From IMG/VR virus record IMGVR_UViG_3300008952_000030, positions 1 through 64,000 of that record: a stretch of 64,000 nt of DNA. One strand, written 5' to 3'. Position 1 is the stretch's first letter, and each line of letters begins with the position of its first letter. The stretch comes from a virus. Under the pieces are notes generated by a model, which searched no databases, was not told the origin of the DNA, and saw nothing but the letters and a program-made list of their open reading frames with translations. Of the stretch, positions 1 to 63,059 are shown in pieces. The translations under genes were made by a program, and so were the position numbers.

Positions 1-134
1 ATGCGGCTAATGCCACGTCCCCCATTGCTTCGATATCATCGTTTGCATTTATAGTTTTGGGTATTTTTACTGTGCCTACCCACACAGCCTTGCACGTATT
101 ATTATCCTTACCCTGTCGATACCTGTTCACCCCC
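1..134 (-). ncRNA. ssrA: tmRNA (transfer-messenger RNA), 5' portion, cut by the window edge
   Basis: Rescues stalled ribosomes by acting first as tRNA-Ala and then as a message for a degradation tag. Read on the minus strand, the RNA opens at 134 with GGGGGTGAACAGG followed by the ATCGACAGGG element typical of tmRNA 5' ends. A pseudoknot-like segment follows (CTGTGT/GCACAG and GGGTA/TACCC), equivalent to PK1. The tag reading frame then resumes at GCA and reads ANDDIEAMGDVALAA, ending at the window edge; ALAA is the classical proteolysis-tag ending. The 3' half, including the acceptor stem, lies outside. No smpB is visible, so the host SmpB is probably used. The tag frame and 5' signature make this assignment strong. 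Confidence 0.93.
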
Positions 135-421: not shown

Positions 422-865
422 CTAGTTACCTAAATCGTAAAAAGCATACCAACCCATACCGCTAAAATCAGGAGGTAACCTAGGATCGACAGGTTTTTGA
501 GACTTAGTGTCGATATACTTAACTGTTAGTTGTTTTTTAGTTCTTTCTGATGTGAACGTTGCATAGTGAGTCACTACTAAATCTGTAAAAATCCTGTCTA
601 ACTTTCTGTTCTTACCTATCCAAGAAACTATCAGAAGTGATTTCGTTTCCAAACACCCATCTATTCTGAGTAGGTGCACTGACGGGCCCGGATCATATAT
701 CGTTTTCGGCATTTGGTAACTTTCCGATAAAGTTTCGCAATACTTAAAAAGTTGTTCTATTGTTGCTTTCTTGACAGTTAAGTTTTTTGGTACTTTAATT
801 TTTTCTGGTGCTTGCTTGGCGACTGGAGGTGCCAATAACGATATCAATAAAAAGAATTTTATCAC
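422..865 (-). CDS. Putative secreted or periplasmic protein of unknown function
   Basis: 147 residues. Translation starts at GTG 865, overlapping the TGA of the upstream gene (GTGA). An N-terminal hydrophobic segment (residues 1-15, FFLLISLLAPPVA) looks like a signal peptide. The rest is mixed alpha/beta with two Cys (CETLSES and DGCLETK) that could form a disulphide. It is the last gene before the terminator at 318-345. I recognise no domain. Confidence 0.65.
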   Translation of the reverse strand: MIKFFLLISLLAPPVAKQAPEKIKVPKNLTVKKATIEQLFKYCETLSESYQMPKTIYDPGPSVHLLRIDGCLETKSLLIVSWIGKNRKLDRIFTDLVVTHYATFTSERTKKQLTVKYIDTKSQKPVDPRLPPDFSGMGWYAFYDLGN

Positions 866-1212
866 TTCTCATCTCCTATTTGCTTAATGCTGAATTGTTT
901 AATGCTTTTTCTTAATTCTGAAAGACTTATTCCAAGTATGTTTGCTGCTTCTTTATGAGATGATGCTGCAGAAAGTGCAAAATTAATTAATGCACTTTTT
1001 ATAATATGAAACGAAGAATTCCATAAAGGAAAACCGAAAAGTTTTCCTCTGAGAGGCTCAGCTGACAATTCCAACTTAAGAGCTATTACCTCCTCTAGTT
1101 TCAAACTAGACAGCATAGCTTCGAACTGTTTTGATGTCTTACCATCCTCCCTAAGCGACCGAGCAAAGCTGTATTGGTGTGTTTTATTCTTTTTAGATCT
1201 AGGATTTTTCAT
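862..1212 (-). CDS. Small protein with Fis-type C-terminal helix-turn-helix
   Basis: 116 residues. The N-terminus is basic (KNPRSKKNK). The last 40 residues, around HKEAANILGISLSELRK, match the pattern of the Fis/NtrC C-terminal helix-turn-helix (A..LGIS...L...), which binds DNA as a dimer. A transcriptional role is therefore likely, though targets are unknown. It overlaps the downstream secreted-protein gene by four bases. Upstream lies a 224-base gap with a T4-late-like TATAAATA box. Confidence 0.7.
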   Translation of the reverse strand: MKNPRSKKNKTHQYSFARSLREDGKTSKQFEAMLSSLKLEEVIALKLELSAEPLRGKLFGFPLWNSSFHIIKSALINFALSAASSHKEAANILGISLSELRKSIKQFSIKQIGDEK

Positions 1213-1436: not shown

Positions 1437-2237
1437 TTAAGCTAACAAGGAATCAAAATCTATGTCGGCTTCTTCTTCGCCAGCGGCAGCAGCATCGGGG
1501 GCTTCATCTGCTACAGCGTCTTTCGCATCTTCATATTCGGGATTAGTTGGCTCTACTATTTTTGTTGAAAGCTCTTCTTCAAATTTATCAAAATATAGTT
1601 TTACATTGGTTATTAGATAGTCATAGAACATTTCTTTGTCTTGTTCGTTCCCTAATACACTAAAATAATCGATTATCGATTGCTCTATTTTATTGTAAAC
1701 CTCAAATGCTCTATTTCTACCAGTCTCGTCTTCACCTTCTAGAGAAAAGTTTGACTTAGGATCCTCTTCTGGTTCCTCTTCCACCTCTACGTCATCGGTA
1801 GGTATAAACTTGTCGTCTTCTATATCAATCTCTATTTCTTCTTCCAAATCAGGAGAAGGAGACTCGCCTACAGATGCCTCATCGTTTGCCATTATCGGAG
1901 CTAGAGTGCTCTGTACAGCATTAACAATATGCGCTCTAAAAGAATCTCTCTGATTTTTATCTGTCGTCAGAGACTTGAAAGCTTGAGAAAGTGTCTTTAA
2001 TATGTTTGAGTTCTTAAGCATATCTCTCAATACATTAATTCCAGTATTCTCGTGAGGATCCTCTTCAGGATCAGCTGCAGCTTCAACGATGAGAGACTGT
2101 ATGATGGAGCGAAGTTTTATTTCTTGCAATATCTCTGCAGTTCTAGCTTGTACGTGTCGATTCTTCACTATCGATACAGCTTTTTGGATGTTTTCTCGTA
2201 AAACCATCTCTTTTGCCATTTCTTCTCTTGATAACAT
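1437..2237 (-). CDS. Acidic protein, possible virion or scaffold-type component
   Basis: 266 residues. The first 120 residues are predicted helical (MLSREEMAKEMVLRENIQKA). A strongly acidic, low-complexity middle (residues ~125-160, rich in E/D) is followed by a helical segment containing YNKIEQSIIDYFSVLG and an acidic tail. GGGAG precedes the ATG. It follows the 789-residue ligase-like gene by 21 bases. Acidic helical proteins with low-complexity linkers are common among phage head scaffold or core proteins, but no family motif proves this. Confidence 0.6.
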   Translation of the reverse strand: MLSREEMAKEMVLRENIQKAVSIVKNRHVQARTAEILQEIKLRSIIQSLIVEAAADPEEDPHENTGINVLRDMLKNSNILKTLSQAFKSLTTDKNQRDSFRAHIVNAVQSTLAPIMANDEASVGESPSPDLEEEIEIDIEDDKFIPTDDVEVEEEPEEDPKSNFSLEGEDETGRNRAFEVYNKIEQSIIDYFSVLGNEQDKEMFYDYLITNVKLYFDKFEEELSTKIVEPTNPEYEDAKDAVADEAPDAAAAGEEEADIDFDSLLA

Positions 2238-5432: not shown

Positions 5433-6848
5433 TCAATTTAAAGTGATTTTATAAGGAGTGCCTACGGGGCGCTTTCTTATATTAAATGCTGATATGGATC
5501 CATTCGAGACTTTTGGTTCTCCCTCAACCCTGGTGGTAGTAGTTGTAGAATCATATATATATATTAGCCCCTTATCGTCCAAACTATCCACTTCGAATTT
5601 CGAGCCAATGACAAGTGCGTCTCCATTTATGGCAACAGAACTAGCCATCATTGGCGCATGCGCCGTTTCCTGGCTGTCGGGAGTGTATGTTTGGGAAAGA
5701 GTCCAGTATGTGGAGCCGCTCTCATATAGCCAGGCTCTTCCGTCTTTTGCGCCATTAGTCCCCCCGCCGTTGTAAACCTCTGCCCCGATGATCATGTGAG
5801 TGCTGCCAACGTCTATAGCACTTCCAAACTGAGCGCCAGCCTGATCACCAGCTATGCCCTGCTTAAAGTACCACCCATCCGAACCAAGAGCATACAAATA
5901 TGCTGCCCCTGCATTAGAGCCCCCCACATCATTGCCGGGCGCACCGATGACAAGAGTATCGTTGTGCAAGGCAACTTTCATTCCGAATTCTTCTCCTGTG
6001 GATCCACTGGGGTGTGAAATAGTCCCTTCCAAATCCCACGATGTCGAACCTGAGTTAAAAACAAATACCTTATCTACCCCTGGTGCCCCTACCGCTAATT
6101 TGCTGCCAGTGAGGTATACTGATGCCCCGAATTCAGAACCGTAGTTACCACTACTCAAGGGATTCTCAACACTAGAAGACACCCACCCGGCGCTGGTAGT
6201 CAGAAACATATATACCACGCCTTCGTACGAAGGACTATGATCTCTCGCACCTACTGCTATCCAGTCCCCATTAGTAGAAACCGCAGCACCGAATTCGTCT
6301 CCCGATTCTAGATTTGAAGCAGAAATATGTGTTTCGTTCCAAATGCTGCCTACTTTTTCCCATATGATGATTTCACCGCGATACACGGTACCGTTGTGAA
6401 ACTTCGGACTACCAGCAACTACCCTGTCGTTATATATACTGGCACCTTGGTTCCTATAACCGTACCAGGATCCGCCTTTTGTATAATCTGTGCCCATATA
6501 AAGAGAGATTCCGTTAACCCAAGTTGAGGATGTCAGTCTTGTTTCTGTTGTGGTGCCCCAATCATCTCCAGTCTTTTCAAACAACAGTATAGCACCATGA
6601 TTTGCGTTGCCGCCGCCATGAGCGGGATTAGTGTATCTAGTCTCTACAGCTATAGCCTTGTTGTTGCACAAACCAACAGTCCAGCCAACATACGTTTCAC
6701 CGTTGTCAGTAGAAGATTCTGTTTTATGCTTGTTTGTGTAAGACGATATGGAAGTCTCCACCTTCGTATATTGTCCGCGAAGGGTACTGTGCCTATCGAT
6801 AGAATAATCTGAATTATGGTTATTTAAATTTTCTATTTTTTTCGACAT
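5433..6848 (-). CDS. FG-GAP/integrin-like beta-propeller protein, candidate tail-fibre or adhesin
   Basis: 471 residues, Ser/Thr/Gly rich. Five to six repeats of ~55 residues carry the FG-GAP pattern, for example GDEFGAAVSTNGDWIAVGA, GSEFGASVYLTGSKLAVGAP, GEEFGMKVALHNDTLVIGAP and GAQFGSAIDVG. Such repeats form seven-bladed propellers that often bind Ca2+ or carbohydrate. No signal peptide is present, as expected for a virion part and not for a secreted host protein. The basic C-terminal end (NIRKRPVGTPYKITLN) may attach to another virion protein. Receptor binding is inferred from fold and context only. Confidence 0.75.
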   Translation of the reverse strand: MSKKIENLNNHNSDYSIDRHSTLRGQYTKVETSISSYTNKHKTESSTDNGETYVGWTVGLCNNKAIAVETRYTNPAHGGGNANHGAILLFEKTGDDWGTTTETRLTSSTWVNGISLYMGTDYTKGGSWYGYRNQGASIYNDRVVAGSPKFHNGTVYRGEIIIWEKVGSIWNETHISASNLESGDEFGAAVSTNGDWIAVGARDHSPSYEGVVYMFLTTSAGWVSSSVENPLSSGNYGSEFGASVYLTGSKLAVGAPGVDKVFVFNSGSTSWDLEGTISHPSGSTGEEFGMKVALHNDTLVIGAPGNDVGGSNAGAAYLYALGSDGWYFKQGIAGDQAGAQFGSAIDVGSTHMIIGAEVYNGGGTNGAKDGRAWLYESGSTYWTLSQTYTPDSQETAHAPMMASSVAINGDALVIGSKFEVDSLDDKGLIYIYDSTTTTTRVEGEPKVSNGSISAFNIRKRPVGTPYKITLN

Positions 6849-6867
6849 GCTATAAGTATATAGCGTC

Positions 6868-7866
6868 TTATATGGAGTCTTTACATGAAGAAAACATTAT
6901 TTCTACGTCTTTATCTTTTAGGTTCTCTTCTATCCAGAATTGCATGTCTCGAGAATTATCAAATTCAAACTGGTTAATACCAGAATAAACACACCACCTC
7001 TCAACTTCTTCGAGAACGTCAACCTTGTTTATTACGAGCTTGTTAACACCGTTAATATCAATAGCCTTTAAAAGATTATCAAAGTCCATCCAATTAACTT
7101 GCCGCGGCCGCCCAGTGGTAGCTCCGAACTCTTCGCCTGCTTTTCTTATTTTAGCGAATATCGGATCTACACCTTCAAAGAGCTTATTTCCAACATATGT
7201 TTCATAAATCTTTGCTACGCCCCAAATATCACGGATGCTTCTTGGTGGTACACCATTCAATATTGCCCCACCGACAGTGCAATGACTTGAAGTTACATAT
7301 GGATAATCACCCCAGTCAATATCAAGCCCGAAGCCTTGTGCTCCCTCGAAAAGAATAACACTCTCATCATAAAATGGACTATCGTGAAGTTCTGTATACA
7401 TGTCGACAATATAGGGCTCAAGTTCCGGAACTTCCATTGCGCGTACACCCTTTCTTGCATACTTATCTCTATATGCGGGCCCGTTGCCTCTCTTCGTGGT
7501 GCCTATCACCTCGTCTTGGCCATCCTGAGCCATATGAAAGTCTGTAATTACATGAGTGTTAGAAGCTACCCCTATTAACTCGAGTGCACTAATTCCATGA
7601 GATTCCAGCTCCTGTATTTCTTCAAAAAATTGTTTAACGTTTATTACACATCCGGGCCCTATAATAGATCTAATACCGAAGAATACACCGCAAGGGATAT
7701 GATGTGTTACGAACTTCTTCCCTTCGTGATATATCGTGTGTCCAGCGTTGCAGCCTCCATTATACCGTATTACATGAGTATAATTACCGTTTTTAGCTAA
7801 ATGGTGTGCAACCTTACCTTTGCCACAGTCGCCGTACTGTAAATCAACAATTACATCTGCTATCAT
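6868..7866 (-). CDS. purA: Adenylosuccinate synthetase family protein (short, PurA/PurZ-like)
   Basis: 332 residues, against ~430 for most bacterial PurA; close to archaeal and phage members. PurA joins IMP and Asp using GTP in AMP synthesis; phage PurZ relatives use dGMP and ATP to make 2-aminoadenine precursors. Landmarks are Y-G-D13-C-G-K-G-K18 (canonical WGDEGKGK), GGCNAGHT, GTTKRGNGPAYRDK, FEGAQGFGLDID with YPYVTSS, and the Asp-binding loop EFGATTGRPRQ. Asp13 is kept but the following Glu is Cys. An AGGA site precedes the ATG. Family membership is certain; whether the substrate is IMP or dGMP cannot be settled from this window. Confidence 0.9.
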   Translation of the reverse strand: MIADVIVDLQYGDCGKGKVAHHLAKNGNYTHVIRYNGGCNAGHTIYHEGKKFVTHHIPCGVFFGIRSIIGPGCVINVKQFFEEIQELESHGISALELIGVASNTHVITDFHMAQDGQDEVIGTTKRGNGPAYRDKYARKGVRAMEVPELEPYIVDMYTELHDSPFYDESVILFEGAQGFGLDIDWGDYPYVTSSHCTVGGAILNGVPPRSIRDIWGVAKIYETYVGNKLFEGVDPIFAKIRKAGEEFGATTGRPRQVNWMDFDNLLKAIDINGVNKLVINKVDVLEEVERWCVYSGINQFEFDNSRDMQFWIEENLKDKDVEIMFSSCKDSI

Positions 7867-8138: not shown

Positions 8139-8320
8139 TTACCGTCTCTTTTTCTTCTTGTAAACTCTTTTTTAGCTGCCATTGGATTTCGAGCTGTCAT
8201 TTCAATGTCTTCCCTTAATTTTGATATTTGCTTAGATAACAAGTAAGGCAAAAACAAACAAAGAGAGGAATTAAATAGAGTAAAGCCAGTTATAAGATAT
8301 AATAGAGAGTCGCTACTCAT
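8135..8320 (-). CDS. Small membrane protein
   Basis: 61 residues. One long hydrophobic segment (residues 5-28, LLYLITGFTLFNSSLCLFLP) followed by a charged, helical and basic tail ending RRKRDGK. Overlaps both neighbours by a few bases. It resembles the N-in, single-span small proteins common in phages; function unknown. Confidence 0.55.
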   Translation of the reverse strand: MSSDSLLYLITGFTLFNSSLCLFLPYLLSKQISKLREDIEMTARNPMAAKKEFTRRKRDGK

Positions 8321-10775
8321 CGTTCACCTCCCATAAATTAAAGTCTGGATCCATAATATCTATTATTTCATACTTTCTGCTCTTTATTATGTTATCTTTT
8401 TCGTCTAATTCTGACTCTTTTTTAATTTTTGAAAAGAATTCTTCGGCTTCTTCATTCATGTGTTTTGCTGCCCTCGCAGTGTCGCAATCGTCATAACAAG
8501 CAGTCTGCTTCTTTGTGGAGGGATTAAGTACGGCACAGTCGCCCTTTTCGCCTGTTGTTTTCTTAGTGCAGCTTCTTTTAATGTATATTTCTTTAAGCTT
8601 TTCGAAAATATTGATATTCATTTTATTGGACTCCATTGTTAGGCGCATCAAATCATCTATTTCATCTGCATAGAATGGGTTTTCGGCACTTCTATCTCCC
8701 GCTATCTCTCCAATCTCCTTTAATATATTAAAAAGAGGAAGAAGAATTTGAGACTTGAACATGTTCATTGTAGGTATTTCTTCTTTTCTGTTTTTCCACT
8801 CCCCTATCGATATATCATTAACCCTTCTCATTCTCCGCTCAGCGTCGTGATTGGTTGACTTCCTGCCTAACTCAAGCAGATCTTTCGCAGCTTGCGGTAG
8901 GCTGTCCATAAATTCTTTCTGCGCGCTTATAACTTCAGCAGCTACTTCTTGTGCGGACTCTATTGCAGCAGCTGCAACTCTTTCATAATTTTCATCCAGA
9001 AATCGAACAACATCGACAATCATGTCTATCTCTTCTTGATTAGCTTCTGGGTTATCTATCCTTACCGACACTTTGGCAAAGATGGAGTTTTCATCAATTC
9101 GGACGCTATCGTAAAGGACGACTTGCAATGTTTCTGGTATAGTCAACTTTCTGACAACGCGAGGATCAGCTCCGTGAAGAGGCAACTCGAGCTGCTGCGC
9201 TAGGTAAGTCTGTATCGCTTGATTGAGTTCTTTTAATTTTTCAAACATTCTCTGATTAACTTCTTCGCTGACATATTTGCCACCAGCATATACAGCGAAA
9301 TGTTTAACTAAGAATGGACTAGTCTCTGTTATTATTAGATTTTCTTTGCTAGCAAATATTATCTCTTCTTCGCCGGCATACTCACTATAATCGGTGATAT
9401 TGAAATTCTTAAGCTTCTTTTGTAGTTCTTCAAGTGTTGCCTGGAACGTATCGAACGCTCCTTTGGCGATATAACCCTCTTCTGCCAAATGTTTGCTTAT
9501 GATTCGTTGCATCGTGCTGTATTGCTTGTCGTAATCCCAAATCTGGTGCAGAAAAGAGTCATACCCTTGTGGATCCGGTTCAAAACCATCAGTACTTGCT
9601 CTAATTTCGAATGTAACTTTCCCATTATAATCGGATATATCAATGTCTTCGTGATATATTTGAACTCTTTCGAATTTGCTTGATATCTCACGAGACAATT
9701 CACTCAAGTCTCGATAATTATCGGGGAACTCATATTCCCCTCCTTCAAAAATATCTTCATCGAACTCTACTGTGAATCCTCCACTAAACGACACATAATT
9801 GCCCTCACCATAGTCCTCGACTTCTGCACTGTAGTATCCATGTTTAATTTTTTCTTGATATTCGGCTTCTAGATTTGTGATTTCCGAATCCCAACTTCCT
9901 GTTGGATCTGGTGGATTGTCCAGGACGTTCATGTACCCATTCTGGATAATGTCTGCTGCTATTTCATCTATTGGTTCTTTCTCTTCCTCATCTAGCAATT
10001 CATAGTCCCACCTGGCCCCGAGCTTGTTCATCGTCACTGCATCGTAGACAGCGCTTTCACCGGGTTCATCATCTAATGCGTCGAAGACTTGCTGCAAATC
10101 TCCCTCCCTACTATAAACTAGTGCTAGCTTATGCATTTTATGATCAGCAGGAATGTTATCAAATCTCACCATCACAAACGCTTGGTAATCTGAAGTGTAT
10201 TGATCGAAGTAGTTTCTGGACTCAGTTGCTGATATGCACCATCTGGTATTTTTACCATAAAAACAAGAAGCCTCTTTTGTGAGTGGGCGAATCGCAAAAA
10301 TATCATTCTCGTCATATATGAGTTCTGAACCCTCCATTGCTCCTTCTTTTTCTCTCTTTCTTTTCTGGCTTTGCGACAAGCCCAAATCTCTCAACGCTGC
10401 GCGGAGTTCTTCCGGTTCATACTTATATATGTCCTTCTCTTTTAGTCTCTGATGGTGTTGCTGAAATTGTCCAATAATTTCCAACAAGACGTTGGCTATT
10501 TCGAAAACATCCCTATCATGAGGCGCGTTAGCGTGCCAGTGATTGTCTCCTTCAATATCATCTTTAAAATTTTGATGAAGCTCGCGAGCAAACCACATCA
10601 AATACTTTGACACCCCTTTGGGCCCAAAATCGTCATGAAGCGCTTTCTGTGCATATGCAATAAAACCAGCAAGATCCAACTGAGGGTATTTTGCCTTTAC
10701 GTCTTTGACACGTGCTTCAACAAGCAGCGCTGGATCCAGAAATTGTTTCCAAATTTTTTGAAAGGAATTAGACAC
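8313..10775 (-). CDS. Large uncharacterised phage protein with N-terminal W-x2-FL leader
   Basis: 820 residues, GTG start preceded by GAGG in the end of the upstream gene. N-terminus MSNSFQKIWKQFLDPALLVEA carries the W..FL leader shared with four neighbours, with an L-V-E site. Around residues 165-195 is FYGKNTRWCISATESRNYF; a G-[KE]-x-T-[RK]-W-C-[IT] motif recurs in large uncharacterised phage proteins. A central acidic region and a long helical C-terminal half follow. Near the end a Cys cluster (CTKKTTGEKGDC, ACYDDCDTA) may bind zinc. The leader suggests a virion or packaged protein. I cannot assign an enzyme class. Confidence 0.7.
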   Translation of the reverse strand: MSNSFQKIWKQFLDPALLVEARVKDVKAKYPQLDLAGFIAYAQKALHDDFGPKGVSKYLMWFARELHQNFKDDIEGDNHWHANAPHDRDVFEIANVLLEIIGQFQQHHQRLKEKDIYKYEPEELRAALRDLGLSQSQKRKREKEGAMEGSELIYDENDIFAIRPLTKEASCFYGKNTRWCISATESRNYFDQYTSDYQAFVMVRFDNIPADHKMHKLALVYSREGDLQQVFDALDDEPGESAVYDAVTMNKLGARWDYELLDEEEKEPIDEIAADIIQNGYMNVLDNPPDPTGSWDSEITNLEAEYQEKIKHGYYSAEVEDYGEGNYVSFSGGFTVEFDEDIFEGGEYEFPDNYRDLSELSREISSKFERVQIYHEDIDISDYNGKVTFEIRASTDGFEPDPQGYDSFLHQIWDYDKQYSTMQRIISKHLAEEGYIAKGAFDTFQATLEELQKKLKNFNITDYSEYAGEEEIIFASKENLIITETSPFLVKHFAVYAGGKYVSEEVNQRMFEKLKELNQAIQTYLAQQLELPLHGADPRVVRKLTIPETLQVVLYDSVRIDENSIFAKVSVRIDNPEANQEEIDMIVDVVRFLDENYERVAAAAIESAQEVAAEVISAQKEFMDSLPQAAKDLLELGRKSTNHDAERRMRRVNDISIGEWKNRKEEIPTMNMFKSQILLPLFNILKEIGEIAGDRSAENPFYADEIDDLMRLTMESNKMNINIFEKLKEIYIKRSCTKKTTGEKGDCAVLNPSTKKQTACYDDCDTARAAKHMNEEAEEFFSKIKKESELDEKDNIIKSRKYEIIDIMDPDFNLWEVNDE

Positions 10776-11424: not shown

Positions 11425-11760
11425 TTACTTTTTGAGTTGCCCTTTGAGGGTTTTCATTCTGGTTTCGTTGGATATCCACTTACTCAATCTGTTCGCAAGA
11501 CTCCCGAACTCTTCTGCGTCCGCCAATTGCTTAGCAGCGTTCCTAAATTCATAGCCTGGATAATATGAAAGCTCTCTGTCTTTGATTTCTTGCTCCATAT
11601 CCATTATTCTCATTGCCATATTCTGAATTTCTTGCAAATACTCGCGGAGGATAGCCAAGTCCCCCTTTTCAACCTCTACTTCGGAGCTATTATCGACGAC
11701 AGCTAGCTCATTTTCCTCTTTTAAGAGAAAGTTCTTCCATTTTTTCATCGAATCATCCAT
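11425..11760 (-). CDS. Small helical protein with W-x2-FL leader
   Basis: 111 residues. Starts MDDSMKKWKNFLLKEENE, with W..FL and an L-K-E site like its neighbours. The rest is a predicted helix bundle (ILREYLQEIQNMAMRIMDMEQ; LADAEEFGSLANRLSKW). A second in-frame ATG at 11748 is possible. It overlaps the nucleotidyltransferase gene upstream by eight bases. No recognised domain. Confidence 0.6.
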   Translation of the reverse strand: MDDSMKKWKNFLLKEENELAVVDNSSEVEVEKGDLAILREYLQEIQNMAMRIMDMEQEIKDRELSYYPGYEFRNAAKQLADAEEFGSLANRLSKWISNETRMKTLKGQLKK

Positions 11761-12589
11761 TTTTCATGTCTCCTTTACGAAATAGTTTCCAATTTTCAGA
11801 TATATTAACTTTTTTTGTTGGTTTTTGGCTTATCGACATCATCATATCGTATGAAGTTGTCCTTAAGGACATTAAGTCCTTTATCTCATCGTTGTTTCTT
11901 AACATTTTAAATGCCAAGTTCTCTGCAGAGTAGACTCCTTCGTCCTCAAGCCCTGCAATTCTCATGTTTTTTATTTTTTCCTTCAATTTCGACGCATGAT
12001 CATACACTTTTTTGTACTCTTTCTTTTGAAAGAGCTTTGAGAGTTGCATAATTTCAAGCGACAAGGCTTTATATTTTTTTTTCGTGGCATCAAAATCAAT
12101 ATCTATCTCTTCTCGAACCGGCATCTCGAGCCATTCTCCGCTTAACACCGAATGAACTCCATTAGAGAAGTGCTCCTCGTTAATATCTTGTATATATATT
12201 TCTACTTCGTGCCCAAATATTCGAATATTATGGCTATTGTTCCACTGAATTCTCTTGAGGGCGAAAAATTCTGACAAAATATCTTCAGTTTCGCCAATTT
12301 CATTAAAATCTACCAGCAAATGCAAGTCAATGTCGCTAGCATTGTGGTAGTTGTAGCTAGCTAGAGAGCCAGTAAACGTTATATCTTCAAAGTCTGGTAC
12401 ATTTGGCACGCTATCTTGGACAGAAGAGTAAAACTCTTGAGCTATTTCCACCAGTCTTTCGCGAGCTTCTTCATTTAGCTGCCCCCTATTCCAGAATTTG
12501 GAATTAAGTTTATCTTTTATGGTTAACTTTGAGCGATCGAAATCTTGTTCTGTAAGATACTTGCCCCATTTTCTGTTAAAATCAGTCAT
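11753..12589 (-). CDS. Pol-beta-superfamily nucleotidyltransferase with leader peptide
   Basis: 278 residues from ATG 12589, inside the end of the Fic-Nudix gene. The N-terminus MTDFNRKWGKYLTEQDF is a W..YL leader with an L-T-E site. GSLASYNYHNASDIDLHLLV (~residues 68-88) is the G-S...D-x-D signature of the DNA polymerase beta superfamily, which includes antitoxin MntA-like and tRNA or protein nucleotidyltransferases. The C-terminal half is helical. It probably transfers an NMP to a host molecule; substrate unknown. Next to Fic, a second nucleotidylating enzyme, it suggests a target-modification set. Confidence 0.75.
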   Translation of the reverse strand: MTDFNRKWGKYLTEQDFDRSKLTIKDKLNSKFWNRGQLNEEARERLVEIAQEFYSSVQDSVPNVPDFEDITFTGSLASYNYHNASDIDLHLLVDFNEIGETEDILSEFFALKRIQWNNSHNIRIFGHEVEIYIQDINEEHFSNGVHSVLSGEWLEMPVREEIDIDFDATKKKYKALSLEIMQLSKLFQKKEYKKVYDHASKLKEKIKNMRIAGLEDEGVYSAENLAFKMLRNNDEIKDLMSLRTTSYDMMMSISQKPTKKVNISENWKLFRKGDMKNG

Positions 12590-13571
12590 TTTCAAATATT
12601 TCCTGCGCTATTTTTTCGTATTTGTTGGGATTTTTAATATTCTTTACCTGTCTCATCTTGTGTTCTGAGTGTTCAGAGCTTAATTTTATCTTACCAATTG
12701 GCAATTCCGCCTTGTAGTACTTCTTGCTACCGACATCCTTCACTTTTTCAACGTTGTTTATCGACAGTCCAGTCTCTTCTTTCACCTCTCTTCGAAGTCC
12801 GTCCAAGATGTCTTCCCCTTCGTGCACGTGGCCACCAGGCAAGTCCCACTCTCCGGCATGTTTTTTAACATACGCCGTTCGTTTAAGAAACAAAACCTTC
12901 TGATCTTCGCCGACAAGAATCACTTTAGCCACTATTTTGCTGTCCTCTTTCGCTTCAGATAGAGTGCCTTTCCAGAACTGCCCATGAAAATGCCTGCCAG
13001 CTCTATCTAAATTCGCAAAGTATCCTTGTCCTATCATACTATTGACAACGCTGAAATTTAACCCTAGCATGCTAGCAAGGATTATCCTACCAGATCTGCC
13101 ATTGCCGTCGTCGAAGGGGTGTATTAATTCGTATACAGTGTGAGCTTGGAACTCTCTACCGCTCCAATCTTGACTAATCCACCAATCAAGAGCCTCTGGG
13201 ATATCTTCCGGATTAACGTATTTGGTACCGTGTTCAGATTGTGCACCTCCAGTTCTTAGCATACCAGGCGCCCCAGCATCTAAAGCTCCTGCTCCCATCG
13301 CTCTATGTACATGGAGTATATCAGAAATTTCCGATATTCCCCCTTTGGCTTGCTCTAAACCTGCTAGATGAGAGAATATATGAGGATTTTGTGTAACATA
13401 CCTAAGAGGATATCCCTGTTCTTTACCCTCTATCGCTTCAAGTACTTCTTCCGGAGAGACATCATACCCTTCTATTTTATTCGATTGTACGATAAAAGAG
13501 ACAAGCTCGCTGTTGCTAGCTTCGGACTCCTCTTTAACAAACTTTCGCCAACTTTCTAATATGAGTTTCAT
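12582..13571 (-). CDS. Fic AMP-transferase fused to a Nudix hydrolase
   Basis: 329 residues. HPFDDGNGRSGRI (~150-162) is the complete Fic catalytic motif, including the phosphate-binding GNGRxGR. S30-N-K-I-E34-G35 near the N-terminus matches the inhibitory helix [S/T]xxx E[G/N] of class II Fic proteins. From ~residue 210 a Nudix domain follows, and GGHVHEGEDILDGLRREVKE with EETGL matches G-x5-E-x7-REUxEExGU in full. Fic transfers AMP from ATP to Ser/Thr/Tyr of target proteins; Nudix enzymes hydrolyse nucleoside diphosphates linked to another group. The first residues, MKLILESWRKFVKEE, form a W..FV leader with V-K-E. The upstream ACTATTTAT box lies three bases before the ATG. Confidence 0.88.
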   Translation of the reverse strand: MKLILESWRKFVKEESEASNSELVSFIVQSNKIEGYDVSPEEVLEAIEGKEQGYPLRYVTQNPHIFSHLAGLEQAKGGISEISDILHVHRAMGAGALDAGAPGMLRTGGAQSEHGTKYVNPEDIPEALDWWISQDWSGREFQAHTVYELIHPFDDGNGRSGRIILASMLGLNFSVVNSMIGQGYFANLDRAGRHFHGQFWKGTLSEAKEDSKIVAKVILVGEDQKVLFLKRTAYVKKHAGEWDLPGGHVHEGEDILDGLRREVKEETGLSINNVEKVKDVGSKKYYKAELPIGKIKLSSEHSEHKMRQVKNIKNPNKYEKIAQEIFEND

Positions 13572-41409: not shown

Positions 41410-43290
41410 TTAGACTTCCTCAAATTCAGCATCTACGACGTCGTCATCCTGATCCGCAGGCTCTTCACTTGATGGCTCTTGCTTTGCTGCCGACTCATAC
41501 ATTTCTTTGCCTGCAGCCTGCATTGCCTGTGTCAACAGCTCAAGCTCTTTCTTGATTAACTCCGGTGTACTTTCCTGAGTTAAGCACATTCTTGCCGACT
41601 CTATTGCTCTTTGCACGTCGCCGCTGGTAGCTTCTGAAATCTTATCCGGGTTTTCTTTGAGAAGTTTTTCTGCTTGAAATACCGTTGATTCAAGCTTGTT
41701 CTTGTCCTCTACCTGTTGGCGGCGTTCCTTATCTTTCGATTCGTTAGCCTTTGCTTCTGCCACCATCCTATCCACCTCGCCCTTAGACAAGGATCCTCCA
41801 GACTTCTCGATAACAATCTTTTGTTCCTTGTTTGTAGCTTTATCAGTCGCAATTACGCTTACAATTCCGTTGGCGTCGATATCGAACTTAACATCGATTT
41901 GAGGAACTCCGCGAGGAAGAGGCGGGATGCCATCAAGCTTGAACACTCCCAAAACCTTATTATCTGCTGCGAACTCCCTTTCCCCTTGCAAAACTTTGAT
42001 ATCAACGGCAGGCTGACTATCAGCAGCAGTTGTAAAAACCTGTGATTTAGAACAAGGTATCGTTGTGTTCCTGTCGATAAGCCTTGTCATAACACCTCCC
42101 ATTGTCTCGATACCTAGCGATAATGGAGTCACGTCAAGAAGAAGCAAATCCCTTACTTCTCCCGTAAACACTCCACCCTGCACTCCGGCGCCGAGCGCTA
42201 CAACCTCGTCTGGATTGACGGAAGAGTTTGCCTGCTTACCGAAGAAATCTTCCACTGCCTTACGGACACAGGGGATCCTTGTAGAGCCTCCAACCAAAAT
42301 CACTTCGTCTATCTCCGACGATGACATGCTAGCGTCCTCAAGCGCATTCTTGACTGGTTCAATAGTCTTTTTGACTAACTCATCTATCATCTGCTCAAAC
42401 TTGGAGCGGTTCAAGGTGAGCTGCAAGTGCTTTGGGCCGGAGGCATCGGCAGTGATAAATGGAAGATTCACATCCGTCTGCTGAGTGCTTGACAATTCTA
42501 TTTTAGCTTTTTCTGCTGCTTCTCTCAACCTCTGCATTACCATGGAATCTTTCGATACGTCGATGCCAGAATCTTTCTTAAACTCTTCGACTATCCACTG
42601 GATTAGAACCCTGTCAACATCGTCACCACCAAGATGCGTGTCCCCATTCGTACTTAGAACCTCGACTACGCCATCAGCTATCTCAAGCACAGAGACATCA
42701 AAGGTGCCGCCGCCCAAATCGTATACAACAATCTTCTTTTCATCCTGCTTGTCAAGCCCATAAGCAAGAGCTGCAGCAGTTGGCTCGTTGATTATTCTCT
42801 TAACCACAAGTCCAGCAATCTGTCCAGCGTCGCGGGTTGCTTGTCGCTGAGCGTCGTTAAAGTAAGCTGGGACAGTAATGACTGCCTCCTTCACTTCCTC
42901 CCCTAGATAAGATTCAGCTGCTGACTTCAGCTTAATAAGAACCTGAGCGCTGATTTCTTGAGGAGCTAATCCTTTTCCGTTTAACACAATCTCGCAGGAT
43001 CCGGATGCTGACTTCTTTACTTCGTAGGGCATCTCAGATGCCTCTTTCGTCACCTCTTCATAGTTCATCCCCATAAATCTCTTGGCGGAGTAGACGGTGT
43101 TCTTGGCATTCGTAACAGCCTGCCTTCGAGCTGGATTGCCGACAACTCTTTCTCCGCTTTGCAGATACCCCACTACCGATGGAGTAGTTCTGGCTCCCTC
43201 TTCGTTTGTGATTATCTTTGGGCTGTCGCCCTCCATGACAGCGACGGCGCTATTGGTTGTTCCTAAATCAATTCCGATAACTTTTGACAT
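41410..43290 (-). CDS. dnaK: Hsp70 chaperone DnaK
   Basis: 626 residues, full length. [20 protein letters not shown] (phosphate 1), [15 protein letters not shown] (phosphate 2), [14 protein letters not shown] (adenosine), substrate-binding domain ([18 protein letters not shown]) and the lid with a C-terminal [12 protein letters not shown] tail typical of bacterial DnaK. No DnaJ or GrpE gene is in the window, so host co-chaperones or genes elsewhere are needed. Folds proteins by ATP-driven cycles. Viral DnaK is rare. Promoter at 43330. Confidence 0.97.
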
Positions 43291-43835: not shown

Positions 43836-43934
43836 TCATTTCGCGGTACACATATATTTGATTGCAAATATTGCGGCAGTCAACAGTGCAGCTAGCACAT
43901 GGAGGAGAAAATTTCTCTTAAACCTCTCAATCAT
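43836..43934 (-). CDS. 32-residue membrane peptide
   Basis: MIERFKRNFLLHVLAALLTA then AIFAIKYMCTAK. Start overlaps the preceding stop. Basic start, one span. Confidence 0.5.
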   Translation of the reverse strand: MIERFKRNFLLHVLAALLTAAIFAIKYMCTAK

Positions 43935-44526
43935 CCGTTTCATACGTCATAACACCAATAATATCTACCAACTTACCTACGTACATTGATGCCACATCAT
44001 GCCTACCCCTGGCTTTTGCGTCCTCTACTAAGGAGACAAGCTTTTTAAAGCAAAGTTCACAGTTTATATAGAATTCAACTGCCTCAAAAACTGCCCTTGT
44101 GGCAGAAAAGTTTACAGACTTCCCTACCTGGCGGAATATCATTTTCTGATTCCTTTCATTTATAGTCTCCAAAAGAACCAGTGCCTCAGAATCAGAGCCA
44201 GATTGAGTTTTTTTAGTATCAAAGTCCGCTTTTACTACAAAATTACTGAACCGTATCCTGTTCAAAGATTTATATTTCTTTGAATTCGCGGCGCATAAAC
44301 CCGAAAAGAGAGCGTCGACGACGCCGTCTCCGGCACACTTAAGCTTCTTGTTCGTTCCGCTATGCGAGTAAGAACAAGTAACTTCTGACACGCTTTTGTC
44401 GACAGACTCCTTTATAACAATAGAGTCTGGTGTCATGTCACAAATATCTGACAACAATATCTCTTTAAATATTTTCTTTATGCTTTCTTTTTTTACTTCT
44501 TCAGGACGTGTCCGTGTTGGCATCAC
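43927..44526 (-). CDS. Protein with LeuA-dimerisation-like domain
   Basis: 199 residues. KLKCAGDGVVDALFSGLCAA, then RFSNFVVKADFD and SEALVLLETINERNQKMIFR, QVGKSVNFSATRAVFEAVEF, parallels the C-terminal allosteric domain of 2-isopropylmalate/citramalate synthases (A.G.GPVDA.., then G.s.di..AS..A...a.N). The TIM-barrel synthase part is absent. It may sense an amino acid or dimerise another protein. Moderately confident from pattern alone. Confidence 0.55.
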   Translation of the reverse strand: MMPTRTRPEEVKKESIKKIFKEILLSDICDMTPDSIVIKESVDKSVSEVTCSYSHSGTNKKLKCAGDGVVDALFSGLCAANSKKYKSLNRIRFSNFVVKADFDTKKTQSGSDSEALVLLETINERNQKMIFRQVGKSVNFSATRAVFEAVEFYINCELCFKKLVSLVEDAKARGRHDVASMYVGKLVDIIGVMTYETDD

Positions 44527-47729: not shown

Positions 47730-49307
47730 TTAGTCTCCCATTTCTATAATAGCGTGGTTAGTTGTCAAAAGAGTGCCTGCTACTGACGCTGCATTGCGCA
47801 GAGCGCTCCTTGTCACCTTAACAGGATCGATGATTCCTACTTCAAACATGTCAACCAATTCGCCGGTTGCAAAGTTGATGCCCGTTCCGGCTGAAGCCTC
47901 TGTGATTGCGCTTAGTGTCTCTTCTACATCCATCCCACAGTTAGTAGCCATTTGGCGGATGGGCTCCTCCAGAGCGCGGCGTATAATAGAAACGCCCGCT
48001 TCTTGATGCTCATTGTCGGTATTTACTTTAAGCTCTGTCGAAGTTCTCAACAAGGCAGTGCCTCCACCTGAAATAACTCCCTCAAGCTGAGCTGAGCGCA
48101 CTGCCTCTAGAGCATCCTCAATACGGTGCTTCTTTTCTATCATTTCAATCTCGGTTGCTGCTCCAACACGAATAACTGCGACGCCGGAAGCCAAACGAGT
48201 AACTCTATCCTGCACTCTCTCCGCTTGATGCAGAGAGTCAGTTTGCTCAACCTCCGCCTTAAGGGCGTCGATTCTATTCTCAACCTCGTCCAAGTCTCCT
48301 GCTCCGCCGACAACGGTTGTCAGCCCCTTCTCAATCTCGATTGTCTTCGAAGAGCCGAAGTCAGTCAACTTAGCCTCCTTAAGCTTGTCTCCGGCTGAGC
48401 GTCGAAAATACTTAGCACCAACTGATATCGCCAAGTCACTCATGATACCTCTTCTTTCTTCTCCGTATCTAGGTGCCTTAACTGCCGCCACCTTCATCGT
48501 CCCTCTCATGGAGTTCATAATCAATGCCGCAAGAGCTTGCCCCTCAATGTCATCGGCTACAATAACAAACGGACGACTCTCGCGGGCAGCAATCTCTAGC
48601 GCTGGTAAAATCTGATCAACAGTTTCAATCTTTTCATCAGTAACTAAGAAAACAGGATCCTCATAGCGCACAACTCCACGCCTGTCATCGGTGATAAAAG
48701 CTGTAGCTGCATAGCCAGAGTCAAACCTGAAGCCCTCCATCAAGTCAAGACTTGTATCTACCGAGCGCGCTTCCTCAATAGTGATGGAGCCGTCCTTCCC
48801 AACCTTGTCGACAGCCAAAGCAACCAAGTTTCCAATGTCTTCGTCTCCATTAGCAGAAATAGTAGCAATGTGAGCAACGTCATCAGCGCTCTGAATCGGG
48901 CGCGCAGCATTAAGAAGCAACTTATTTACTTCCACAACTGCTTTGTCGATGCCTCTCTTTACTTCGATGGGAGCTGAAGAGTCTGCGTTCATCCTGTCGG
49001 AGGCTGCGTTGAAGATGGCGCGAGCTAACACTGTAGAGGTGGTTGTACCATCCCCAGCGTCGACATTAGTCTTTGCTGCTGCCTGCTTAACAACCTGTGC
49101 ACCAGCATTCATGAACTCATCTTCAAATTCAATGAACTTGGCTACAGTGACTCCATCCTTGGTGATGATGGGGCGCTTACCCTTTTCATGAATAATTACA
49201 TTTCTACCCCTAGGGCCCAATGTTGAAGCAACGTTGTCGGCTAAGACATTAACTCCATCAAGTATTTTTTGTCGGAGGCAAGCTCCAGATGCGAATTTTT
49301 TAGACAT
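47730..49307 (-). CDS. groEL: Chaperonin GroEL
   Basis: 525 residues. TLGPRGRNVIIHEKG, DGTTTSTVLARAIF (ATP site), IEEARSVDTSLDLMEGFRFD and GGTALLRTSTEL are chaperonin signatures. The usual C-terminal GGM repeats are missing (ends HAIIEMGD). No groES gene is visible nearby. Assembles a folding ring. AGGAAA precedes the ATG and a promoter lies at 49345. Viral GroEL is known from a few large phages. Confidence 0.97.
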   Translation of the reverse strand: MSKKFASGACLRQKILDGVNVLADNVASTLGPRGRNVIIHEKGKRPIITKDGVTVAKFIEFEDEFMNAGAQVVKQAAAKTNVDAGDGTTTSTVLARAIFNAASDRMNADSSAPIEVKRGIDKAVVEVNKLLLNAARPIQSADDVAHIATISANGDEDIGNLVALAVDKVGKDGSITIEEARSVDTSLDLMEGFRFDSGYAATAFITDDRRGVVRYEDPVFLVTDEKIETVDQILPALEIAARESRPFVIVADDIEGQALAALIMNSMRGTMKVAAVKAPRYGEERRGIMSDLAISVGAKYFRRSAGDKLKEAKLTDFGSSKTIEIEKGLTTVVGGAGDLDEVENRIDALKAEVEQTDSLHQAERVQDRVTRLASGVAVIRVGAATEIEMIEKKHRIEDALEAVRSAQLEGVISGGGTALLRTSTELKVNTDNEHQEAGVSIIRRALEEPIRQMATNCGMDVEETLSAITEASAGTGINFATGELVDMFEVGIIDPVKVTRSALRNAASVAGTLLTTNHAIIEMGD

Positions 49308-50429: not shown

Positions 50430-51128
50430 TTAAACAATAATGTCAGCAATTCCCAGCTCGACAGCTTGCTCTGCAGACAAATAAACATCAATGTGTTTTT
50501 TGAGGTACTTCTTAATTTCTCTCTCTGTCATATTTGATTCGGCAGCAAGACACTCAACGTATCTCTCTTGGATCCACCTAACTTCTTCAATTTCATTTTC
50601 CATGTTTGTGAGATTGCCATGGTATCCACCATTGACACTATGTATCATAACTCTGCAATTTGCACCTATCTTTCTTTTCCCCTTCGTCCCTGCAGCTAGC
50701 AGCACAACACCGGCAGACATTACCTTCCCCATTCCAATCGTGCTGATATCACAAGATTGTTTCACCATTCCCATAGTGTCATAGATGGCGAACATTTCCG
50801 CCGCGACGCCACCATGAGATGAAATAAGAAATTCAATAGGTTTGCACTCTTGCTCTTCACCGTCGGCATGAAGGCGTCGGGACAATTCCTTAAGGAACAT
50901 AAACGACTGCACAATGTCAGAAGCATTATCCTCAGTCAAATCTCCATACAAAGAGATGCTCCTAATCAAGCTCGAGCCATCGCTTTGCGGCTGCTCAATA
51001 TTGTTGATAATGATAAATCTCTCTTCGGCGTCAAGAAGTCCCTCGTTCGGATTTTCGAGGATAACTTCCTGCTCTTCTACCAGCTCTTCCTCTACTTTCT
51101 TCTTACCCTTGTTTTTTTCTTTTGGCAT
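50430..51128 (-). CDS. ClpP-like serine protease
   Basis: 232 residues. ClpP/crotonase fold with complete triad: S138 in KVMSAGVVLLAAGTKGKR, H163 in RVMIHSVNGG, D214 in KKHIDVYLSAEQAVELG. An extra charged N-terminal ~35 residues (KEKNKGKKKVEEELVEEQ) is not in host ClpP. Could work with host ClpX/ClpA, or act as a prohead protease, since some phage maturation proteases belong to this clan. No clpX is seen. Confidence 0.85.
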   Translation of the reverse strand: MPKEKNKGKKKVEEELVEEQEVILENPNEGLLDAEERFIIINNIEQPQSDGSSLIRSISLYGDLTEDNASDIVQSFMFLKELSRRLHADGEEQECKPIEFLISSHGGVAAEMFAIYDTMGMVKQSCDISTIGMGKVMSAGVVLLAAGTKGKRKIGANCRVMIHSVNGGYHGNLTNMENEIEEVRWIQERYVECLAAESNMTEREIKKYLKKHIDVYLSAEQAVELGIADIIV

Positions 51129-61024: not shown

Positions 61025-61806
61025 GCCCCTCTTTCTGATGATGTCATAATCTCAATATATTTATTCCCTTTAAATTGCAGCTTACTTATGGAAAATTTCT
61101 CTCTCCGTGTCGGCTCGAGCTTTATCGATAAAAACTTTTGTTTTCCAGCTATCGTCGTGCCATCTTTTGCTCCCCTTATCCCACTATTCTTCATGAGTTT
61201 CTCAACTTTAAATCTAGCGATAGTAGGAGAAGCATCAAAATCGTTCATTTCTTCGCTAGTCATGAAAGATTCAGAAACACAATCTTTAATATTCTTGTTT
61301 CCGTCCACCCTTTCAGATTTATAAAAATACACTTTGTTAACAAAAGGCTCTGAAGTTTTCAGCACATCAATTTCGTGTTTTGCTCCACTTCTTACGTTGA
61401 ACCAATCAAATACCCTGTACTTCTCTCCCTCTTCACCAGAGGACTCCTCCATGGTTACATTCTCGTTGTCGAACATAAAACACTTTTTGAAACTAGCATG
61501 AACACTGAACGCTCCGCCCAAAGAGACAAACATCTTATCCTTTTCGAACCTTATGCTGTCTATTGATGTACCAAACGGCACCAAGCCTGCCATGGCATGC
61601 TCCAGAACCATAAACGACCAAGCAGTCTCGGCATTAGTCGTCTTAAGCTGCAGCTCGGGAATCTCAATCTCCTCTACCTCGTCAAACGGGAAAGGCTTCT
61701 TTCTCGTATTTAATATTAATGGAATTTTGTTTTCATAAGCATGCTTCACAGCTGAGAGGCTGTGTCCAACTACAACTTCTTGAAAATCATATTTATGATT
61801 TCTCAC
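61021..61806 (-). CDS. Hypothetical conserved-type protein
   Basis: 261 residues. FQEVVVGHSLSAVKHAYENK then IPLILNTRKKPFPFDEVEEI reads like a Rossmann start, but the glycine pattern is incomplete. Long beta-rich middle and basic C-terminal part (KFLSIKLEPTRREKFSISKL). ATGA overlap with the MazG-like gene. I do not recognise it further. Confidence 0.55.
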   Translation of the reverse strand: MRNHKYDFQEVVVGHSLSAVKHAYENKIPLILNTRKKPFPFDEVEEIEIPELQLKTTNAETAWSFMVLEHAMAGLVPFGTSIDSIRFEKDKMFVSLGGAFSVHASFKKCFMFDNENVTMEESSGEEGEKYRVFDWFNVRSGAKHEIDVLKTSEPFVNKVYFYKSERVDGNKNIKDCVSESFMTSEEMNDFDASPTIARFKVEKLMKNSGIRGAKDGTTIAGKQKFLSIKLEPTRREKFSISKLQFKGNKYIEIMTSSERGA

Positions 61807-63059
61807 CTACATGCTCCTGAAACTATTGTCATAAGATTTTCATACATGCTGTCCGAGTCGCTTGTTAAATCAAAGTTTCTCCCGCCAGTGCTTACTGCCA
61901 ATTCATCCCAGCCATAAAAAGCAAGAGCAAAAGTGTACATCTTCAACCCCTCTGTAGAAACTAGTGCGGGGCCGACGGCGTGTATCGTATTTGGGGGATT
62001 CATATATGTCCTCTCGGGCTCATCCGAGAATACTACTATAATCTTATCAGCACCCTCTCTCCAATTTATAAAGAACTCAGATAATACTGGGGAAGATACC
62101 GCACCAGATGTCCACCTAGACATATTCAAATCGTTTGTCAACATAGGACTAATATTTCTCAATGCAATATATACTGCATCGAGAAGCATCTCCAGTCCTC
62201 CAACGTGAAGCCTATCAACTTCAAGAAACCTATTCAAAAAATCATTAAAAGGAGAAATGTCAGAAACCAAGCGAAGCATTTCGTAATTATCTCTTGGATT
62301 CTCTTGATCAAGCACCCTTATTGGGCCGACTATTAAACCCCACTGGATAACCTCTTCATCTGCAAACTCGCGAGAAAACCTTTGCAAGGCTTCTATCGTC
62401 GCACCTACTCTCACTCCCATAGAGCTAGACCAGTCGACTACGAATAGAATGTCAGTATTCCGTATGCCTTCGCCAAAGTCCACAACACCATCACAGTCAT
62501 TGTCGACGCCGTCACACACCTCAATAGAAGGAATCACCTCGCCTGGGCACAAGTCCTCTACCCAAATATCATTCTCAAAGTTACCCCACGTGCCATGCAT
62601 GCAAATTTGTTCTCCAGCCAGGCAGTTTCCAACACCAGCGGTTTTAACTGGGCCCGAATAGCAATTGCGGGCAATAGTTTCGTCAACGATCCCGTCGCAG
62701 TCGTCGTCGATATTGTTGCATGCTTCCTCAAAAACCTGCGGAGCAGAACACTCCACAAGGCTGCCCGAGATGCACCGTGAGACACCGGGGCCACAAGCGG
62801 TGTCGCAGTTATATGCTCCTTCGTCAATATTCCCATCACAGTCATTATCAATGCCGTCGCACTGCTCTGTAGTGCATAGCTGTGTTGCTGCATCAATGAT
62901 TTCGGCAATGGCGTCAATGGTAGGCACCGGTATGATAATTGAATCCACAGGCGGCAGAGCGACGTCGCGCACTTTGCCATCGATATCGTGGAGCGCTGGT
63001 GGCGCCGCATCATCAACGCAGGAAACAAGCAATATTAACAATAAAAGTAACTTTCTCAT
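61803..63059 (-). CDS. VWA-domain lipoprotein with MopE-type repeats
   Basis: 418 residues. Lipobox L-V-S-C14. Three Cys/Asp modules (CDGIDNDCDGNIDEG; CNNIDDDCDGIVDE; CDGVDNDCDGVVDFG), the putative metal-binding motif of MopE-like proteins of Myxococcota and relatives. Then a VWA domain with MIDAS D-W-S-S-S-M. Surface protein that likely binds Ca2+ and a partner protein. Lacks phage-type features, so it was probably taken from a host. Adjacent to a second VWA gene. Confidence 0.82.
   Translation of the reverse strand: MRKLLLLLILLVSCVDDAAPPALHDIDGKVRDVALPPVDSIIIPVPTIDAIAEIIDAATQLCTTEQCDGIDNDCDGNIDEGAYNCDTACGPGVSRCISGSLVECSAPQVFEEACNNIDDDCDGIVDETIARNCYSGPVKTAGVGNCLAGEQICMHGTWGNFENDIWVEDLCPGEVIPSIEVCDGVDNDCDGVVDFGEGIRNTDILFVVDWSSSMGVRVGATIEALQRFSREFADEEVIQWGLIVGPIRVLDQENPRDNYEMLRLVSDISPFNDFLNRFLEVDRLHVGGLEMLLDAVYIALRNISPMLTNDLNMSRWTSGAVSSPVLSEFFINWREGADKIIVVFSDEPERTYMNPPNTIHAVGPALVSTEGLKMYTFALAFYGWDELAVSTGGRNFDLTSDSDSMYENLMTIVSGACR

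Follow-up and report, generated by a model that had tools for sequence, protein, structure and literature searches.

A standard one-piece tmRNA gene truncated at the left edge of a virus contig, and its full, minimal, tag-less and gene-containing forms in related phages

Phage-encoded tmRNAs are already known but rare. One survey recorded a tmRNA in 402 of 18,146 phage genomes (PMC9004378), and the tmRNA database lists 79 unique phage sequences (PMC11915505). One-piece, phage-borne genes with a tag of their own, like the gene described here, occur in the Mycobacterium Bxz1/Cali group, Wildcat, Bacillus phage G and Streptomyces phages (PMC4131195); however, only the T-arm region (34-37 nt) of these could be aligned with ours at the DNA level, and the phages are unrelated. 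The tmRNAs of Melnitz and the pelagimyophages (PMC9004378) likewise come from aquatic phages and occupy a fixed genome position, with SmpB not discussed as phage-borne, but they are permuted two-piece molecules, that of Melnitz with a glutamine riboswitch, whereas the present gene is of the standard one-piece type. The tRNA-like-only tmRNA of DS6A (PMC4131195, PMC11915505) is unlike the present gene and of the same kind as the one found here in a related locus (L043). The forms given in the tmRNA database paper are standard, permuted, intron and tag-less only (PMC11915505). Among them, the form with a group I intron in the T-loop is an interrupted tmRNA gene, as are some relatives of ours; in those relatives, by contrast, the interruption is a protein gene with its own ribosome-binding site, located in the P2 loop after the tag. 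The gene reported here thus adds one more to the known phage tmRNAs, and the surprise lies in the variants carried by its relatives.

The sequence analysed (the window) comprised 64,000 nucleotides, positions 1 to 64,000 of the 76,425-bp linear virus record IMGVR_UViG_3300008952_000030. An earlier note, made from the letters alone, had proposed that the left end encodes a viral tmRNA bearing a tag of its own. This was borne out when positions 1-1000 were searched with cmscan: the standard tmRNA model RF00023 matched the minus strand with 45.8 bits (E 9.1e-17), and phage genes flanking the gene and complete copies in relatives agreed with it. The match spanned model positions 1-126 of 374 and carried the flag for 3' truncation; the strand read from 134 to 1 runs GGGGGTGAACAGGTATCGACAGGG ... 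GCAAACGATGATATCGAAGCAATGGGGGACGTGGCATTAGCCGCAT. Because two thirds of the model falls past the contig edge, the score lay just below the RF00023 gathering score of 47, and the match was found with an E-value threshold set instead. Therefore, ARAGORN and cmscan with default Rfam settings called nothing at 134..1. The model of the permuted two-piece form, RF04321, scored 29.4 bits against the 45.8 bits of the standard model, and relatives showed the standard order, so the permuted form was rejected. Chance was excluded as the source of the match by the E-value, the covariation and the synteny, and the window 134..1 is the 5' part of a genuine standard one-piece tmRNA. Since window position 1 is also the first base of the record, no sequence can be read farther left. 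The 3' half was sought at the right end of the record and was absent there; that end falls inside a PolA-type polymerase gene, showing that the tmRNA gene was cut by assembly and that the contig cannot be closed at this point. An exact DNA pattern made from the tag had no match in viral contigs, comparison of the 134 nt with cultured phages gave only matches of 23-31 nt, which is chance level, and a promoter scan upstream of the tmRNA found sites no commoner than in shuffled sequence.

Table 1. Positions of the tmRNA, its elements, its conserved neighbours and the variant loci of relatives (window coordinates unless a locus is named).
Feature	Position	Strand	Basis or remark
5' part of one-piece tmRNA, 134 of about 304 nt, cut by contig end	1..134	-	RF00023; 130/134 = L010
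Acceptor stem 5' strand GGGGGUG	128..134	-	in relatives pairs with CACCUCC, giving G3-U70
Helix P2 5' strand AAUAAUACGU	94..103	-	10/10 complementary to ACGUAUUAUU in L010 3' half
Pseudoknot PK1, GCUGUG/CACAGU + UGGGUA/UACCCA	58..88	-	12 pairs
Tag frame ANDDIEAMGDVALAA, 15 codons, Ala start, ALAA end	2..46	-	sequence
Small conserved gene upstream of tmRNA, synteny marker	862..1212	-	no Pfam or PHROG match
Second conserved gene upstream of tmRNA	1437..2237	-	no family match
tmRNA with nested protein gene	L064:1622-2099; L065:4629-5096; L072:1500-1970; L190:2808-3258; L032; L036-L039; L173; L179		
tRNA-like domain only, 82 nt, CCA encoded, no tag	L043:4379-4460		same syntenic place

The elements of the gene agreed with standard tmRNA (RF00023, ssrA) in the 5' motif, PK1, the Ala-started tag ending in ALAA, and, as read with the help of complete relatives, P2 and an acceptor with G3-U70. 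It differs from standard tmRNA in being phage-encoded, in its 15-residue tag, and, judged from the complete copy at locus L010, in a length of 304 nt and a CCA that is not encoded. In the window PK1 precedes the tag, and an open tag frame runs from an Ala codon to an ALAA-like end, exactly as the earlier note had read it; the stop codon begins with the T at window position 1, where the contig ends, and L010 continues with TAA. The PK1 score was matched by none of 300 shuffles, and both of its stems covary across relatives, the second appearing as TGAATA/TATTCA, TAAGTA/TACTTA or CAGCGT/ACGCTG with pairing retained. G3-U70, the T-arm and P2 likewise speak for a functional tmRNA gene. Only the 5' strand of the acceptor stem lies in the window, while the T-arm and the tRNA-like 3' half fall off the contig and are both present in L010. 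The acceptor stem with a G-U pair that the note had named as confirmation was found in the complete relatives, with G3-U70 in all 18 of those examined.

The nearest relative was the 158-kb record G007, whose DnaE is 96% identical to that of the window phage. Its locus L010 holds a complete tmRNA (126.7 bits, E 2.2e-52) that is 97% identical to the window tmRNA over its first 134 nt and has the tag ANDDIEAMGEVALAA (ARAGORN), one residue off the window tag. In this copy neither outcome that the note would have taken as refutation, a missing tRNA-like 3' half within ~350 bases or a model score at noise level, was seen. Terminal CCA is not encoded in L010 or L011 and is encoded in other relatives. 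G068, the second-closest phage (80%), and G005, G069 and G070 had DnaE proteins 75-80% identical to that of the window, and their tmRNA loci are L190, L011, L192 and L193, respectively; all six phages of this DnaE subclade (G000, G007, G068, G005, G069 and G070) carry a tmRNA. The gene in G068 has a protein gene between the tag and the tRNA-like half and a 5' half of the same type as ours, and the 3' half of the window gene lies out of view, so the window tmRNA could in principle be nested in the same way. We consider this very unlikely, because the much closer G007 has the plain 304-nt form. The plain form predicts a tRNA-like half with ACGTATTATT ... TTCTGGACGCGGGTTCGACTCCCGCCACCTCCA within about 170 nt to the left of the contig edge. 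Directly after the tmRNA in G007 lies a gene for a NifU/IscU-type iron-sulphur scaffold (L188:3708-4097, Pfam 5e-54).

The genome place of the tmRNA was conserved among these phages. A search with a pattern of the tmRNA 5' end found six viral contigs, and in four loci (L004-L007) homologues of both conserved upstream genes adjoin the tmRNA. A profile scan with the aligned family of the nearer gene gave 110 relatives, of which 80 were kept; these are uncultivated records, many of them incomplete. Among the 81 loci in the rows of the resulting neighbour-protein tree, 47 had a tmRNA adjoining the homologue (33 full, including the window; 5 short, at 235-243 nt; 8 nested; 1 tRNA-like only), 31 had no neighbouring tmRNA and 3 were too short to tell. 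Some of the rows without an adjoining tmRNA carry one elsewhere in the genome (e.g., G013). The tree was built from 123 columns and many of its forks are open; the tmRNA label was nevertheless clustered on it, none of 500 shuffles being as low, and a single supported group (SH-aLRT 99) united the short forms with the nested ones. This clustering indicates that the tmRNA is an old, mostly vertically retained gene of these phages that was gained or lost repeatedly. Integration often takes place at host ssrA, and fragments of that gene are found in prophages (PMC9004378), so the piece at the contig edge might instead be a fragment of host ssrA, left by contamination, an attachment-site remnant of a prophage or imprecise excision. 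That origin is extremely improbable: phage-family genes flank the tmRNA in many contigs, the gene is complete and syntenic in relatives and follows the phage lineage, and a 32-nt probe had no match among 85,000 genomes of bacteria and archaea.

Several relatives of the phage tmRNA contained a protein gene within the tmRNA itself. When L064, L065 and L072 were aligned with L063, an insert of approximately 230 nt appeared behind the tag; it holds the open frame MSENN..GYEIRQGLLQQAQ...FVQKKD together with a ribosome-binding site, AAAGGAGG. The nested genes encode 59-69 aa, have their own ribosome-binding site and lie between the tag and the tRNA-like half. A scan with the nested protein found 14 contigs. 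When L032, L036-L039 and L190 are counted in, both tmRNA halves flank the nested gene in at least 11 contigs, and two further contigs with the gene are cut at the contig end. Close copies differ mainly at silent sites (12 silent and no replacing differences between L177 and L179), with dN/dS mostly 0.03-0.2, and the nested genes are thus under purifying selection. The predicted fold of L065 retained the acceptor, T-arm and P2 around the nested gene, and no sign of an intron was seen in the nested tmRNA genes. In L190 of G068 a diverged member, about 37-47% identical, sits inside a tmRNA of the window type, showing that the arrangement is present in two distant tmRNA lineages. Free-standing homologues were found in L181-L183, sharing a leader CACACACA..GGAG, which marks the nested gene as a mobile or transferable unit, present outside tmRNA as well. 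An 8-nt T-loop, AGUCGG(U/A)G, replaces UUCGANU in L039 (=L176), L174, L179 and L190; among the loci examined, every tmRNA with this loop also carries a nested gene, and these tmRNAs belong to two distant lineages. ARAGORN gave wrong tags for L064, L065 and L072 and made no call for L190, so interrupted tmRNAs are missed or mis-tagged by annotation tools. No description of a protein gene nested in a tmRNA was found in a limited search of the literature. It is probable that the tmRNA gene in this phage family is a docking site for a selected protein gene, in at least 11 contigs, and that this form goes beyond the standard, permuted, T-loop-intron and tag-less ones; a single transcript may serve as both tmRNA and mRNA, or may be cut into a two-piece, non-permuted tmRNA.

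The family also included complete tmRNAs that are very short, at 235-243 nt (L035, L060, L063 and L066). Of the 28 distinct tags read in the family, 27 end in AA; the sole exception is ANNADYDLALTA in L067-L069, with the T-loop TGCAAGT. The near-constant AA end speaks for selection on degradative tagging in this family. A different role for the phage RNA would be mainly to sabotage or displace host trans-translation, by soaking up SmpB or alanyl-tRNA synthetase (AlaRS) or by swapping the host tag. The tag-less domain of L043, at the same locus, and the altered T-loops of some nested relatives would suit such a role, as would the similar TLD-only tmRNA of DS6A, a similar molecule strongly inhibiting tmRNA, perhaps by titrating SmpB (PMC4131195). 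However, the window and nearly all relatives retain PK1, P2 and a full open tag frame with AA at its end, none of which a decoy needs, and we regard sabotage as the main role as unlikely. Ribosome rescue remains the preferred reading, with the full tmRNA kept in most of the phage family and the shrunken tRNA-like domain of L043 as a molecule that would compete with host tmRNA.

The roles of alanyl-tRNA synthetase, SmpB and ClpXP in bacterial trans-translation are well established. The tmRNA fold elements, the tag frame and the conserved genome place among related phages were observed directly, and from these sequence features it is likely that the tmRNA gene at the start of the window is a functional one, which would serve ribosome rescue via host factors. 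The phage tmRNA would be transcribed during infection and charged with alanine by host alanyl-tRNA synthetase via the G3-U70 identity pair; where ribosomes have stalled on broken mRNAs, host SmpB and EF-Tu would deliver it to them. Translation would then resume on the phage tag, appending ANDDIEAMGDVALAA and releasing the ribosome, and the ALAA end would pass the unfinished protein to ClpXP-type proteases. SmpB was sought in 37 related phage records, some of them incomplete, and was not found; host SmpB was therefore assumed. On the simplest reading, the tmRNA would work with the SmpB, AlaRS and ClpXP of the host. The likely benefit would be that ribosomes are kept available while host and phage mRNAs are degraded; proposals in the literature for the benefit of phage tmRNAs are speculative (PMC9004378).

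The earlier note had further grouped the tmRNA with DnaK, ClpP and an Smr-like gene as one functional set, and this grouping was not supported. A search of the record for Smr domains gave none, even at E <= 1. Among 36 related records DnaK was confined to 2, those of the window phage and G007, the tmRNA being far more widespread. The ClpP-like protein of the window (50430-51128) is encoded about 50 kb from the tmRNA; it matched Pfam CLP_protease (4.5e-34) and retained the Ser/His/Asp triad when aligned to solved ClpP, and most of its PHROG matches were head maturation proteases, which leaves a role in tag-directed proteolysis unproven. ClpP-like proteins occurred in 19 of 36 records, and in several records a second copy, matching head maturation proteases, lies near the tmRNA.

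Other genes of the window and related loci were also recorded. The DnaK at 41410-43290 is full-length and about 60% identical to bacterial DnaKs. Inference of the host from this protein was tried and rejected, as the best bacterial matches, at approximately 60%, are spread across many phyla and its place in the tree, joined to a long branch, was not trusted. A phage GroEL is encoded at 47730-49307 (PHROG 5725, E 6e-143), and the product of 43927-44526 had a weak match, below the curated cut-off, to the LeuA allosteric dimer domain. Unrelated proteins at 8313-10775, 11753-12595 and 12582-13571 of the window and at 6693-7319 and 7617-8168 of L001 share an N-terminal leader resembling W.KF(L/V/I).E, which we take to be reminiscent of the capsid-targeting leaders of T4 internal proteins; behind the leader-like sequence of 12582-13571 a Fic domain is fused to a NUDIX domain. 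Genes at 61803-63059 of the window and 3062-5413 of L001 encode proteins that look secreted and in which DNDCDG motifs are repeated and aspartate-alanine-proline linkers occur.

At one locus of one phage family, a long-kept syntenic tmRNA is thus found in full, minimal, tag-less and protein-gene-containing variants. Because these form a natural series, what the phage gains from a tmRNA of its own is directly testable by swapping the variants.
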